The translations under genes were made by a program, and so were the position numbers. 64,000 nucleotides of DNA from Flavobacteriia bacterium (GTDB taxonomy: Bacteria > Bacteroidota > Bacteroidia > Flavobacteriales_D > Crocinitomicaceae), in assembly GCA_016183815.1 (NCBI GenBank), contig JACPDW010000008.1, positions 186,001 through 250,000 on the forward strand. Direction: 5' to 3'. Position 1 is the first letter of the stretch; each line of letters begins with the position of its first letter. Of the stretch, positions 16,744 through 20,539 are shown piece after piece. The notes below the pieces were generated by a model. The model saw nothing but the letters and a program-made list of their open reading frames with translations, searched no databases and had not been told where the DNA came from.

Positions 16744-17100
16744 CTATTTCTCCTTTGCAGTTAAACCTGTAATATCATTATCAGTCATTTCAATATACAA
16801 ATATTCATCATTTGCTTTGAATGTAACAGAGCTAACATACATTGCATCTGCAAAACTTAAATCTTTTAGGTTTTCGAGTTCAATTTTTTCACTATGTTTA
16901 GATGAACCTGAAAACCATTTAGGTCAATATTTTTGTGCAATTTCAGGAGTAGATTTAGCTTTTAATTCTAATTCATCCTTTAAATCACTCATTTGTAAAT
17001 AACTACCAACATAAGGAACACTTGGGAGTGTAATTTCAACAGAAACATGTTGATCAAGAAAACCGTTTCCTGAATAAATAAATACTTTACATTTTATCAT
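16744..17100 (-). pseudogene. Hypothetical protein gene interrupted by one in-frame TGA
   Basis: From the ATG at 17100 (MIKCKVFIYSGNGFLDQHV) the frame is coding-like to IAQKY, meets TGA at 16921-16923, then continues in the same frame (PKWFSGSSKHSEKIELENL and on) to TAG at 16744. Without the stop the product would be about 118 residues. I do not recognise the family. An alternative TTG start at 17124 would overlap the end of the preceding gene. TGA serves as a normal stop elsewhere in the window, so this is a lesion rather than recoding. Its neighbour has the same kind of damage. Confidence 0.6.
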
Positions 17101-17110
17101 AGTTCTAAAA

Positions 17111-17716
17111 TTAAATTTCGTCAATTAATTTATATCTGCGCTCATTTAAAGCAATTCTTTTTTCTATTTTTTTTTCACTTTTCAATTCCTTCTTAATTGA
17201 AATATATTCATTTGAAAGCTCGATAAATTTTTCAGAATTTAGAAATTAAGTCAACCAGATATTAAAGGAGGAAAATTCTTCATTTTGAAAGGAATACTCA
17301 AAATTTATACAATATTCTAATGTTTCTGTATTTGACTTTTCACTTTTTTCAACCTTTTTAAGTTCTTTCCCGAAATATTTATCAAAAACATAAATGTTGG
17401 AGCAATAGGTCTTGAATGCTTTTCTTTTAGCTTCTTTGTACTTTTTCTTCATAAACAAAATGACCGTCCATTCAAAAAAAAACACAGGGTCGCAACTATC
17501 ATCTGGAAAATTTTTATCAAACCAATTCATGTAACGCAGACCTTCATCAAAATCTCCTAATTGAAGATAAAGATGCGGTGGCTTATAACGATTTCCGCTT
17601 CCATCATGATAACATCCTCCCCAACGTCTTTTATCTGCTACTAAATCAGCTTTTACACGAGCTATTTTTCTTCTTATTAAATTTTCTTCTTTTGGGGTCA
17701 TTTTTTTTAATAACAA
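17111..17716 (-). pseudogene. Hypothetical cytoplasmic protein interrupted by one in-frame TAA
   Basis: The frame from 17716 (MTPKEENLIRRKIARVKADL after five residues) encodes a 156-residue helical protein. It includes a distinctive PPHLYLQLGDFDEGLRYMNW segment, reminiscent of a tetratricopeptide-like hairpin. After the TAA at 17246-17248 the same frame continues 44 coding-like residues (FLNSEKFIELSNEYISIKKE and on) to TAA at 17111, so the original protein was about 201 residues. The shortened product may still be made. Function is unknown. It overlaps the start region of the next gene, suggesting an old two-gene operon that is decaying. Confidence 0.6.
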
Positions 17717-17744
17717 TTATTTGCAAAATTTTAAAATAAAGCAA

Positions 17745-17782
17745 ACAAAAAAACGCCACTCTTTCGAATGACGTTTCTTAAC
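17745..17782. repeat. Repeat family B, copy 3 (terminator-like)
   Basis: AAAAAAACGCCACTCTTTCG followed by AATGACGTTTCTT forms an imperfect hairpin with A and T flanks. It lies 19 bases beyond the end of the 17801-17983 gene and could terminate that operon. Confidence 0.55.
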
Positions 17783-17800
17783 CATTTAATTTCAAAGAAC

Positions 17801-17983
17801 TTATTTTCTTAACTTATTCCAAACCCACTTCAAAAGCAACGTTACCGTAAAACTCACAACTGCACCTACACAAGCTAAAACAATCGTTTTGATGTAATCT
17901 TGCGAATCCAATGTCGCAAATACGGATAAGGCCGTTCCTGTCGTTGTTCCTATCGCTGTGCTGTGATCGTGATGATGTACCAT
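17801..17983 (-). CDS. Small membrane protein with histidine-rich N-terminus, holin-like size
   Basis: From the ATG at 17983 the product has 60 residues: MVHHHDHSTAIGTTTG, a short linker (FATLDSQDY), then one long hydrophobic helix and a basic tail (KWVWNKLRK). A TTG three codons upstream is the longer alternative. The size, glycine-threonine N-terminus, single helix and charged tail recall small phage holins or toxins, but no family is recognised with certainty. It is the last gene of the minus-strand set starting at 20023. Its 5' leader is structured element 1, with a 13-base hairpin ending 28 bases before the ATG. Confidence 0.6.
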   Translation of the reverse strand: MVHHHDHSTAIGTTTGTALSVFATLDSQDYIKTIVLACVGAVVSFTVTLLLKWVWNKLRK

Positions 17984-18004
17984 TGTTTTCAATTTTTAAA
18001 TTAG

Positions 18005-18245
18005 TTTACTCGCGACCTTGTCGCACCTTTTTCAATTGGTCATTACGATGAATTTGTAGAAAATAAGTTGAAAAAGCGTTGTCGAACCCATGTTTGAGAC
18101 AAGTTGTCCAACCCGATTTTTTTCGGGATGGGTAACAACTTTGTCGAGTTTGGGTGCAGACAGCGAATGAAACTTTAATTTTCAAAAATTCGAGTACAGA
18201 CCTAGCCTTTTTGTTTCTTTTTGGGCAATGCAAAAAGAAAGTAAA
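18005..18245 (-). ncRNA. Structured leader element 1 (three hairpins)
   Basis: Three stems lie in order on the minus strand. H1 (18240-18214) is TTTCTTTTTG pairing with CAAAAAGAAA, 10 bp perfect. H2 (18161-18081) is a branched long hairpin: outer GTC/GAC and ACCCA/TGGGT, a middle stem ACAAGTTGT with ACAACTTTGT, and an apical CCCGA/TCGGG. H3 (18024-18012) is GCGAC-loop-GTCGC. The same order occurs in element 2 with different stem sequences but kept pairing. It fills the gap between two genes. A short ORF across it is not conserved in element 2, so I call it non-coding. Possible roles are a cis-regulatory leader, a processed small RNA or a mobile palindromic repeat. Confidence 0.6.
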
Positions 18246-18794
18246 TCAATTTAATTCAGCAGCAGTTTCAACTAAAGCACAAGCCTTACAGGTGATTTGA
18301 ATAGTGATTTCACAAACTTCAAATTCATCCTCCATTACTTCCGTAATATCAACAGCCACCTTATTTACCTTGTCAGTTAAATCGGTACCAGTCCCGAATC
18401 CTTTCGGGAGTGGTTTTGATTTTCTGCGAACATCAATCGAACGATGTACATTTTCTTTTGCTCGTGTAATCAATTTTATTTCTGAAATTTCAACATCTTC
18501 ATTGATTTCTTCAATCAATTCGATATCCATTTCATTCACTTTTTCAGTCAAATCAGAACCTGCTTTAAAACGTGTTTTTCCTTTAGACTTTACTGAAATT
18601 TCAACACGTTCCTTGCTTTCTTTTTCAATTTCGATGTTGATGGAAGTATCTTCATGTTGATCATCTTCATTTTCTTCGATGTCAACATTCATGATGTTCA
18701 CTTTGTCGCTCAATTCAGAACCAGGCTTAAAGCGTGGTTTTCTTTTTGCTCTTAATTTCACATTCCAATCACTTGATTTACAAACTTTTTTCAT
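18246..18794 (-). CDS. Acidic protein with three internal repeats, unknown function
   Basis: The protein has 182 residues with no signal peptide. Three repeats share the pattern PGS-acidic-L-S/T-D/E-KVN: KPGSELSDKVNIMNVDI (23-39), KAGSDLTEKVNEMDIEL (77-93) and GTGTDLTDKVNKVAVDI (134-150). Each is followed by an acidic linker and a beta-strand-like segment ending in E-I (VEISV, VEISE, CEITI). The third repeat contains six extra residues encoded by an exact 18-bp palindrome at 18392-18409; removing it restores alignment with the other repeats. No family is recognised. It lies between the two structured elements and probably belongs to the 20023-17801 operon. Confidence 0.65.
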   Translation of the reverse strand: MKKVCKSSDWNVKLRAKRKPRFKPGSELSDKVNIMNVDIEENEDDQHEDTSINIEIEKESKERVEISVKSKGKTRFKAGSDLTEKVNEMDIELIEEINEDVEISEIKLITRAKENVHRSIDVRRKSKPLPKGFGTGTDLTDKVNKVAVDITEVMEDEFEVCEITIQITCKACALVETAAELN

Positions 18795-18815
18795 TATTCA
18801 CTTAAATTAAATATT

Positions 18816-19045
18816 TAATACTCGCGACTTTGTCGCACCATTTAATTGACCTTGTGAGGTAACATGTAGAAAACAGAAACAACGGAATCAAGTCGAACCC
18901 ATGTTTGAAGGCAATTTGTCGGAATTTTTAATTCCGGTAACAAATTAGCCAAGTTTGGGTGCAGACGATGAAGTGTTTCGTAGTTTTCAAATGAACATCG
19001 CACAGTCTTGATTTTTTGTTTCTTTTTGATCAAGCAAAAAGAATA
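18816..19045 (-). ncRNA. Structured leader element 2 (three hairpins)
   Basis: Same layout as element 1. H1 (19043-19020) is TTCTTTTTG pairing with CAAAAAGAA. H2 (18966-18892) has conserved outer arms GTCGAACCCATGTTTGA and AGTTTGGGTGCAGAC, a middle stem GGCAATTTGT with ACAAATTAGCC, and an apical CGGAATT/AATTCCG. H3 (18836-18824) is GCGAC-TTT-GTCGC. The middle and apical stems differ from element 1 at many positions yet still pair, which is covariation evidence for an RNA structure. H3 lies 30 bases before the ATG at 18794. Confidence 0.6.
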
Positions 19046-19053
19046 AAAGAATC

Positions 19054-19260
19054 TTATTTTCTGTCTGCAGTTACACTTTGTGCCACTGCTCCCGCAACTG
19101 TTCCAGCTACGATAAGGTAACCACCCAACGTGATTACTGCTACTGGCAAGGCAATTGGAGAAGCTAAAATCGCTCCTCCAGCTGCTGCCAAGCCTAAACC
19201 GAAATTTCGCAACTTTCTGTAAAATTTCGGTGTAGGACTTGTGAAGCGTTCTTTAATTTC
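19054..19260 (-). CDS. Small glycine/alanine-rich hydrophobic protein without a normal start codon
   Basis: The frame encodes about 68 residues: EIKERFTSPTPKFYRKLRNF, then LGLAAAGGAILASPIALPVA and a further hydrophobic stretch, ending SVTADRK. The composition suggests one or two membrane helices with a basic N-terminus. In-frame stop TAG lies ten codons upstream of the GAA at 19260, and no ATG, GTG or TTG occurs between. Either the ATT at 19257 is used, or one base was lost from an original ATG just upstream: CCATGAAATT would become ATGGAAATT with one extra G. The gene follows the 249-residue protein gene by 13 bases on the same strand. Confidence 0.5.
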   Translation of the reverse strand, partial: EIKERFTSPTPKFYRKLRNFGLGLAAAGGAILASPIALPVAVITLGGYLIVAGTVAGAVAQSVTADRK

Positions 19261-19273
19261 ATGGCAACAAAAA

Positions 19274-20023
19274 TTAAACTACTTCAATTACTCGCAACGC
19301 ATTGTACGCACCGTTTTTCAACGAATACTGTACACCGTTTACACTTTGAAAGAACTCGATTTTCAACAAGAACACTTTTACACCTGTTCCCGTTGGAACG
19401 GCAGTAGGTGTCAAGGTTACTGCTGTTGAAGTTCTATCAATTGGCAAATTCACAACGTTAGTCAACTTCACATCTGCGATGTTTGTTCCATAATTCAAAT
19501 TTGCCATACACCCAGTCAAACTGATGTGCGTTGCACCTGCAGGAAAAGTAATATCATTCACTGGAATTAATCCAGCAATTGTAATTACACCTGTGGTTGT
19601 GTTCACCGCCCAAGGTTTGTACAAAATGCTTCCTAATAGAGCATTTTTGTTGAACTCAAAACCTTTCAGTTTTGCTTTTGCAGGAGCTGAAGCAATTGCA
19701 ACTCCAACATTTCTTTGTCCACGAACAGAAGTCGTATCTAAGTTTTTGATTTGGGTCATCAACTTTGTCATACGAGCCACCACACGATTGTCAGAAGCTG
19801 TTAGAGCAATTGGACGCAAAGAATCGCGAGAAAACTTCCCTGCAGAAGCAGAAGAGCCGAATTCAGCCCCATTCTCACGAGTTCGAACAAACGCTGGATC
19901 GTTTTTAATTCGGTCAGCTTCAACACCACCTTTTTCACGAGCCAAATGTCCATCCTTTGATTCGTAAAAAGATAAATCTCCGATTTTACCTTTCAACTTG
20001 ATAATGCCAGTCTGTTTAGCCAT
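19274..20023 (-). CDS. Conserved-looking 249-residue protein of unknown function, possible structural protein
   Basis: It begins MAKQTGIIKLKGKIGDLSFY and has a polar, arginine-rich N-terminal third (VRTRENGAEFGSSASAG) with no signal peptide. The C-terminal half is threonine- and valine-rich with beta-strand character (NTTTGVITIAGLIPVND, TAVTLTPTAVPTGTGVKVF). I recall similar uncharacterised Bacteroidota proteins beginning with the same MAKQTGIIKLKG words, but no function. The beta-rich C-terminus and highly basic N-terminus would fit a particle or filament subunit, which is only a guess. It is the first gene of the minus-strand run and has a plausible promoter at 20108-20140. Confidence 0.65.
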   Translation of the reverse strand: MAKQTGIIKLKGKIGDLSFYESKDGHLAREKGGVEADRIKNDPAFVRTRENGAEFGSSASAGKFSRDSLRPIALTASDNRVVARMTKLMTQIKNLDTTSVRGQRNVGVAIASAPAKAKLKGFEFNKNALLGSILYKPWAVNTTTGVITIAGLIPVNDITFPAGATHISLTGCMANLNYGTNIADVKLTNVVNLPIDRTSTAVTLTPTAVPTGTGVKVFLLKIEFFQSVNGVQYSLKNGAYNALRVIEVV

Positions 20024-20107
20024 TTTTCAATTTTTTATATTCTAAATTCCTCGGATTTCCTCGGAACAAACATTCTTTTGTCGCGACCAAAATTTTGTTT
20101 CTGAATA

Positions 20108-20140
20108 CAAAACTAGAGTAGAGTTAGTTGCGTTTTACAA
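20108..20140 (-). promoter_or_regulatory. Putative promoter of the 20023-17801 operon
   Basis: On the minus strand TTG (20140-20138) and TAGTTTTG (20115-20108) are 22 bases apart, close to the Bacteroidota -33/-7 pattern. The predicted leader is about 80 bases and includes the palindrome GTCGCGAC at 20080-20087. Confidence 0.45.
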
Positions 20141-20279
20141 AGCACTTCCGAATCATTTAATTTGTGCTATTTTGTGTCGTTTTTGCATAAAAATAAGCGA
20201 GAAAAATGCTATATTTTTGTAAAATATTTTATAATTAAACTGTATAGCTATTTTAGTAAATCAAAATCTCAATTTCTCA

Positions 20280-20323
20280 TATAGCTCATGTATGGATGAT
20301 GTATAGATGAAGTATAGATAGTG
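20280..20323 (+). repeat. Four tandem 11-bp repeats (iteron- or operator-like)
   Basis: TATAGCTCATG, TATGGATGATG, TATAGATGAAG and TATAGATAGTG follow each other with no gap and end ten bases before the GTG start at 20333; a fifth partial unit (TATTAAACTG) follows. Spacing of 11 bp places equivalent bases on one helix face, as expected for cooperative protein binding. Confidence 0.7.
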
Positions 20324-20332
20324 TATTAAACT

Positions 20333-20539
20333 GTGAAATTTTTAACATTGAAAAGAGTAGTAATTTATCCAAAAGATATCATGCAAATCACTGGAAAAAG
20401 TGAACGCTATTCTCGTGAAATTTTACACAAGATTAAAACCCTCCACAAAAAGCAAAAACATCAACTTGTTTCACTTCAAGAATTTTGTGATTTTATAGGC
20501 TTGAAAGTGGATGAGGTAGAGCAAAAAATTAAATCATAA
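20333..20539 (+). CDS. Small DNA-binding-like protein, divergent to the unknown operon
   Basis: The protein has 68 residues from a GTG start. It contains YPKDIMQITGKSERYSREIL (about 12-31), which reads as a helix-turn-helix with basic recognition helix. A second helical pair follows (LQEFCDFIGLKVDEVEQKI), similar to winged or excisionase-like small binders. I believe related small proteins are common in Flavobacteriia, but I know no function. Its start is abutted by four 11-bp repeats, the likely binding site. Being divergent from the 20023 operon with a 309-base shared region, it is a candidate regulator of both. The shared region otherwise holds only AT-rich sequence and the putative promoter. 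Confidence 0.65.
   Translation: MKFLTLKRVVIYPKDIMQITGKSERYSREILHKIKTLHKKQKHQLVSLQEFCDFIGLKVDEVEQKIKS

Follow-up and report, generated by a model that had tools for sequence, protein, structure and literature searches.

The locus and its two element copies

The window, which is the whole stretch of 64,000 nucleotides that was analysed, contained two related elements (e1 and e2) on the minus strand, with one gene between them. The features are given by their position in the window.

18005 to 18245, minus strand: element copy e1, of loop class CATTGCC with linker GGCTAGG
18214 to 18240, minus strand: e1 5' hairpin (S1), TTTCTTTTTG / CAAAAAGAAA, from the DNA fold and covarying pairs
18224 to 18230, minus strand: e1 S1 loop CATTGCC, proposed partner of the linker at 18201-18207, from the loop-linker class association and column pair 20-38
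18201 to 18207, minus strand: e1 linker GGCTAGG, proposed partner of the S1 loop, from covariation and the loop-linker classes
18199 to 18202, minus strand: e1 terminal stem, 5' strand GGTC, pairing with GACC at 18038-18041
18038 to 18041, minus strand: e1 terminal stem, 3' strand GACC, from the DNA fold and the terminal-stem test
18081 to 18161, minus strand: e1 central interrupted hairpin with conserved arms, from repeat identity and covariation
18012 to 18024, minus strand: e1 tail hairpin GCGAC/GTCGC, found in e1 and e2 only
18246 to 18794, minus strand: gene between e1 and e2, 182 aa, outside the element, with homologues in the clusters of sister genome G061
About 18818 to 19050, minus strand: element copy e2, of loop class CTTGAT with linker ATCAAG
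19020 to 19043, minus strand: e2 5' hairpin (S1), TTCTTTTTG / CAAAAAGAA, from the DNA fold
19029 to 19034, minus strand: e2 S1 loop CTTGAT, complementary along its full length to the linker at 19007-19012
19007 to 19012, minus strand: e2 linker ATCAAG, from the sequence and the loop-linker classes
19005 to 19007, minus strand: e2 terminal stem, 5' strand GAC, pairing with GTC at 18848-18850
18848 to 18850, minus strand: e2 terminal stem, 3' strand GTC, from the terminal-stem test
18892 to 18966, minus strand: e2 central interrupted hairpin, from repeat identity and covariation
18824 to 18836, minus strand: e2 tail hairpin GCGAC/GTCGC, found in e1 and e2 only

The cluster around the two copies (16924-20539) coded for a MAKQTGIIKLKG protein, small membrane-like proteins, an HU/IHF-tail repeat protein and, in two places, an HTH-like protein. 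None of the small minus-strand genes around the copies gave a Pfam family above the cut-off. In the case of the 182-aa protein (18246-18794), the repeats resembled the C-terminal tail of HU/IHF alone, with weak matches below the cut-off. The same small-gene cluster occurred three times in G061 (L273, L274 and L276). A phage link of the cluster was rejected, since tblastn with its largest protein (19274-20020) gave no phage record and there was no relative in viral contigs.

The sequence GTCGAACCCATGTTTGA was identical in e1 (18081-18097) and e2 (18892-18908), and AGTTTGGGTGCAGAC lay within a 31-base repeat of 87% identity (18131-18161 and 18936-18966). Patterns for the two arms and the GCGAC hairpin matched both copies with 0 mismatches. 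With up to three mismatches, one extra arm-like site was found in the window (22079, three mismatches), and 0.01-0.09 were expected per shuffled window. Both copies beat 200 of 200 dinucleotide shuffles when folded as RNA (z of -4.4 for e1 and -4.5 for e2) and when folded as DNA (z of -4.4 and -3.4, respectively).

These results were consistent with the first-pass annotation, which had described two copies here with common arms and the same order of helices. The middle stems that it regarded as diverged and still paired were present, with compensatory changes between e1 and e2. It had also taken three hairpins as the unit, and this was not upheld. The exact pattern of the third hairpin (GCGAC/GTCGC) was found in 4 of 279 loci, and these all represented the window's own region, so that it was confined to e1 and e2.

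Distribution of the family and its conserved fold

Of 150 genomes from the same GTDB family, 60 had BLAST matches, many of which covered the 5' hairpin alone. From 29 full-length copies collected, 25 were aligned, and a covariance model, which the first-pass annotation had proposed to build from the two copies, was built from these 25. It found e1 at 18035-18243 (E 3.4e-38) and e2 at 18845-19047 (E 1.2e-31), and genomes with matches numbered 113 of 240 in the GTDB family and 131 of 399 in the order. The best nine (family) or five (order) candidates per genome were scored with strict filters, and copy numbers are lower bounds. The genome of the window itself had five matches, two of which were e1 and e2. 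Among the three outside the window, the linker was altered in one copy, the 5' hairpin was missing from another, and the third was truncated by the end of a contig.

A core pattern of the element was found in 15 stretches of named genomes, of which 11 had Flavobacteriales-type titles, three belonged to one 'Bacteroidia bacterium' and one to Chitinophaga. The same pattern gave 0 matches in viral contigs. A plasmid gave one weak match, about 50 bases long and restricted to the 5' hairpin part of e2. Of the 29 aligned copies, 28 had a conserved unit of 204-219 bases, and it measured 240 bases in the remaining one. Tandem runs of the element were present in at least two genomes. The array at L157 216-1377 consisted of three copies at a period of 464, and in that at L161 6839-7477 the model matches of the three copies were about 11 bases apart. 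Another copy (L061 9367-9606) carried a GC-rich insert in the loop of the 5' hairpin.

At L055 12936-13107 and other places, a quite different interior was combined with the 5' hairpin of the element and an AAGGCC end, which suggests a wider superfamily as a hint. Elements of the same or similar architecture were seen in the gaps of a compact island (L055, L058 and L172). By Pfam, this island contained an integrase in L058 and an Amidase_2 gene in L058 and L055. A replication-initiator-like gene, recognised by eye and without a Pfam family, recurred in it together with a P-loop ATPase-like gene that was below the cut-off.

A literature search, mostly outside subscription journals, found no description of the element. 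Rfam at the gathering score gave only tRNAs in the window and in six loci, and the elements had no match. A permissive Rfam scan of 17750-19300 added only weak matches, one with E 0.59 and one with E 2.1, and neither fell within e1 or e2.

The conserved unit is a 5' hairpin with loop-linker pairing, followed by a long interrupted hairpin that is closed by a variable, self-complementary stem. RNAalifold on the 25 copies predicted 36 pairs, and 24 of them had double compensatory changes. Compensatory changes were thus present in further homologues, as the first-pass annotation had supposed. A set of 45 non-redundant copies was used for column covariation, drawn from 96 model matches by taking the first 78 by score and then those below 90% mutual identity. 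In this set, 23 of the 30 best covarying column pairs were model pairs. The other seven comprised five extra, mostly Watson-Crick, pairs and two that corresponded to the loop and linker classes. Selection for a folded structure is strongly supported because 24 of 36 pairs were doubly compensated and 23 of 30 top column pairs were pairs of the model. Unpaired internal loops between the perfect stems were conserved as well.

Covariation in the 45 copies indicated that the linker after the 3' arm of the 5' hairpin was the pairing partner of the loop of this hairpin. Copies with a CTTGA-type loop had a CAAG linker in 18 cases and CAGG in two. Copies with a CAT(T/C)GC-type loop had a CTAG linker in 18 cases and CCAG in one. 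In total, 39 of the 45 copies could be classified, six could not, and there were 0 mixed copies. One of each class was represented in the window by e1 and e2. The pairing of loop and linker in e1 was imperfect, and this was true of the CATTGCC class.

Right after the linker, a terminal stem of 3-4 bp closed the long hairpin across about 160 bases. Its letters were GGCC/GGCC in many copies, GGTC/GACC in e1 and GAC/GTC in e2, and GGC/GCC, GGAC/GTCC, GGCT/AGCC, GCAC/GTGC, GTCC/GGAC, GCC/GGC and GCGC/GCGC were found elsewhere. For the null, the 3' ends were exchanged at random among the copies in 5000 shuffles. Three or more contiguous Watson-Crick pairs were formed in 41 of 42 parsed copies (28.6 expected, maximum of 35 in the shuffles). 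Four pairs were formed in 21 of 42 (11.4 expected, maximum of 18). These 42 came from the set of 45 after L061, L165 and L171 had been dropped, and the linkers of L154 and L170 were set by hand-made rules.

A coding reading was rejected because no frame was open through most of the 45 copies. The commonest open frame was open in just 10 of them. The first-pass annotation had named conserved coding across the element as a point that would speak against its reading. Neither of the small open reading frames inside e1 and e2 had a Pfam match.

Position of the copies and the nature of the folded strand

Copies lay between many different genes in either orientation, and they were found after genes or between them with no constant position before a minus-strand gene. 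According to the first-pass annotation, the third hairpin of each copy stood shortly before such a gene. The distance was correct, with 28 and 29 bases to the ATGs at 17983 and 18794, but the gene position was not conserved in the family.

Filled and empty sites were compared between related genomes. In genus g2, two genomes carried the element at site 1, and the site was empty in five. The left junction was sharp (AACAATT|TTCCACC), and no target duplication was evident. The 3' edge lay about 15-27 bases beyond the terminal stem. In another intergenic gap, the element was present in three genomes, and others had other sequence or nothing. One of these (L069) looked like a remnant in which both ends were kept without the middle. 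In the same gap, L068 and L070 carried another hairpin-rich sequence (CCCTCC...GGGAGG) in place of the element.

The three clusters of G061 were homologous to the window in the same gene order and had no full element at either place. In L273, window positions 19050 and 18822 became adjacent, which corresponded to the e2 site without the element. The insertion edges of e1 relative to the sister clusters could be placed with a precision of about 5 bases. The model scan of these clusters gave weak matches only, the best of them at the e1 site of L273 (E 0.035). A short stretch there resembled the right end of e1, and this site may carry a remnant of the element instead of being untouched. No such stretch was seen by eye at the e1 sites of L274 and L276. 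A full copy was present elsewhere in G061 (G061:C12). A riboswitch or leader reading was dropped because the orientation and the downstream genes varied and the G061 clusters lacked full elements. A cis-acting RNA before a gene is therefore not supported.

Structured RNAs tolerate G-U pairs, and folded single-stranded DNA has no such preference. The 36 pairs were counted in the 45 copies, and the 1532 cells contained 1452 Watson-Crick pairs, 18 G-U, 20 A-C and 42 others. The structure came from an RNA folding model that permits G-U, and this bias runs against the DNA reading. In the case of RNase P RNA from related genomes (MAFFT and RNAalifold, 27 of 30 loci, three being too short), 2032 cells contained 1736 Watson-Crick pairs, 241 G-U and 1 A-C. 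For 15 tRNAs from the examined loci, 35 G-U and 0 A-C were counted in 330 cells, where the tRNA finder is itself biased toward allowed pairs.

The 45 copies were also aligned with plain MAFFT and folded with RNAalifold on each strand, where each run selects the pairs that suit its own strand. The element strand gave 18 pairs with 3 G-U and 20 A-C in 755 cells. The reverse strand gave 20 pairs with 31 G-U (3.7%) and 4 A-C in 839 cells, and this excess of G-U over A-C counts in part against the DNA reading. Because G-U was not above A-C in the element, unlike in RNase P and tRNA, the structure is probably under selection as DNA and not as RNA, as judged from the pairing statistics, in which a lack of G-U is an indirect sign. 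The first-pass annotation had taken the covarying stems as a sign of selection for RNA structure. Its claim of selection on structure stood, but its claim of RNA is probably wrong.

We consider it unlikely that the elements are a structured non-coding RNA, either a small RNA or a cis-regulator, made from the minus strand. The strong covariation, a possible H-type pseudoknot with an A-rich loop and the RNA folds of e1 and e2, which were better than the shuffles, would fit such an RNA. However, the G-U excess of RNase P and the tRNAs was lacking, the gene context and orientation were inconsistent, and there was no Rfam match to the elements. In addition, the tandem triple with about 11 bases between model matches would leave little room for a promoter in each copy.

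On balance, we favour the view that e1 and e2 belong to a dispersed family of non-coding, non-autonomous mobile DNA elements of about 205-240 bp, which would be recognised as folded single-stranded DNA. Recognition would take place in the folded single-strand state, for example on the lagging-strand template. Cutting and joining of the folded strand may be carried out by an enzyme acting in trans, in the manner of HUH Y1 transposases at the ends of REP and IS200/IS605. The covarying terminal stem may have a role like that of a guide and cleavage site, and the 5' hairpin may be the other recognition structure.

Folded recombination sites of another kind were also considered. An attC-type site of integrons acts as a folded single strand as well, and it requires a constant cleavage triplet. 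That the elements are such sites, used by a tyrosine recombinase, seems rather improbable to us. The shared single-strand folding, the small gene flanked by two copies in the window and the tyrosine recombinase gene with Pfam integrase domains in the L058 island agree with it. Against it, the copies were mostly solitary between unrelated genes, there was no cassette array in the loci examined, and the base of the hairpin was variable (GGCC, GGTC, GGAC, GGCT, GCAC, GTCC, GCGC and others) where attC has its constant triplet.

The intergenic position between genes of all orientations and the T-rich and A-rich arms of the 5' hairpin could also be explained by a bidirectional terminator or boundary element that spread by ending transcripts in intergenic gaps. 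We regard this as quite improbable, since neither the loop-linker pairing nor the terminal stem nor the conserved loops would be required for such a function, and the same gaps of relatives had no element. Neutral homogenisation of quasi-palindromes by template switching, with arms matched without structural selection, would yield Watson-Crick-only compensatory changes as its point of agreement, but it is very improbable given the conserved unpaired internal loops between perfect stems, the covariation of the loop-linker pairing and of a 3-4 bp stem across about 160 bases, and the dispersal of the copies.

Candidate enzyme and comparison with known systems

For a folded mobile DNA element, a Y1 protein would be a possible enzyme, and Y1 (HUH) proteins were found in 16 of 17 genomes tested. 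By eye, RAYT-like Y1 genes in L114, L116 and L123 stood beside CCGCAGGATT...AATCC-type repeats, and those in L101 and L105 stood beside other inverted repeats. The repeats beside these genes represent separate REP-like families of the genomes concerned. In PMC6006769, the Bacteroidetes subclass 2.6 repeats agree with the CCGCAGGATT-type repeats, and the subclass was assigned here by motif only. RAYT genes with their own flanking repeats were rejected as direct owners of the element, which was absent at those genes. In 20 loci with Y1 genes, the element had 0 matches up to E 1. No match in 30 PF01797 loci was convincing (best E 0.4), and none of the 30 Y1 loci examined had a related full copy of the element with tnpA.

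A second Y1 clade adjoined ssb genes in genus g2, as judged from Pfam matches to SSB and Y1_Tnp. In L192, L195 and L197, a Y1 gene was adjacent to two or three ssb-like genes and was not flanked by the element, and all three ssb-like genes of L195 were SSB by Pfam. With a best match of at least 79 bits as the threshold for presence of the clade, at least five model matches were found in 12 of 15 genomes with the ssb-linked clade and in 18 of 225 without it (Fisher p 5e-10), where the choice of clade was made post hoc and match counts saturate at nine. A within-genus permutation of the clade against the number of elements gave p 4.5e-5, and it covered the element-bearing genomes of four genera only, with G017 and G112 left out. 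These two genomes had the clade and no element. Several genomes (G108, G095, G132 and G087) were rich in the element and had no ssb-linked clade. In 4 of the 15 genomes (G024, G059, G094 and G161), the best match to the clade contained in-frame stops. The Y1 protein of this clade may mobilise the element, and we treat this as a lead only and as the most speculative part of the proposal.

The element resembles REP/REPIN with TnpA-REP (RAYT) in that both are intergenic, dispersed hairpin DNA, and the mobility of REPs is attributed to a Y1 HUH protein that acts in trans. REPs are described as 21-65 nt long with a GT[AG]G foot, and by this comparison of descriptions the element differs in its 205-240 bp and two modules. 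The loop-linker pairing and the variable terminal stem are on the side of the element, and its copies were not beside the Y1 genes examined. Membership in REP fails on the length and, in the Y1 loci examined, on the flanking gene. On the reverse strand of the element, GTAGAAAA was noticed by eye, uncounted, at the foot of the inner helix in many copies of the main subfamily, and it was absent in divergent copies.

IS200/IS605 elements make no target duplication, and none was evident at the element sites compared. Recognition as a folded single strand and a short guide-like pairing may also be common to both, and the covarying terminal stem would fit such a pairing. However, the 3' edge of the element lies beyond the paired tetranucleotide, the stem, unlike in IS608, is not located at the extreme end, and no copy carrying tnpA was present in the loci examined. 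In PMC6006769, the folded single strand is recognised and a guide tetranucleotide 5' of the hairpin foot pairs with the cut site. The hairpins of the element are much longer than the 20-25 nt given there.

A repeated pseudoknot, STAXI, occurs near genes that handle single-stranded DNA and is discussed as possible single-stranded DNA in PMC2864571. There, its authors favour RNA because of UUCG loops, and it is listed for other taxa, Enterobacteriales (PMC2864571). The pairing statistics of our element differ in favouring DNA.

Larger palindromic, intergenic and structured repeats are also seen in ERIC and YPAL, to which the element is similar in this respect. ERIC and YPAL are of 100-200 bp, have no enzyme as far as is known and belong to another phylum. 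In contrast, the fold of the element was kept across several families of one order with compensatory changes.

The most fitting description of the elements is that of a new family of non-autonomous DNA, folded and widespread, which would work like REP or IS200/IS605 ends whether or not it belongs to either. A further proposal is tentative and remains on the doubtful side: these elements might form a separate class of mobile DNA in several Flavobacteriales families. Its fold code would consist of a two-type, non-mixing lock of loop and linker and a variable, self-complementary terminal stem. Its enzyme would be one not yet tied to such ends, perhaps the single-copy Y1 protein beside ssb.

Covariation is often taken as proof of RNA structure. 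The count of G-U against A-C, with RNase P of the same order as a yardstick, separates folding as DNA from folding as RNA, and by this count what looked like a riboregulator became a probable mobile DNA element. Should there be a host protein that cuts it, the hairpin code of the element would be larger and more elaborate than that of REP or IS200/IS605 ends. The terminal stem, variable and yet complementary, would then provide a natural set of guide and target pairs.
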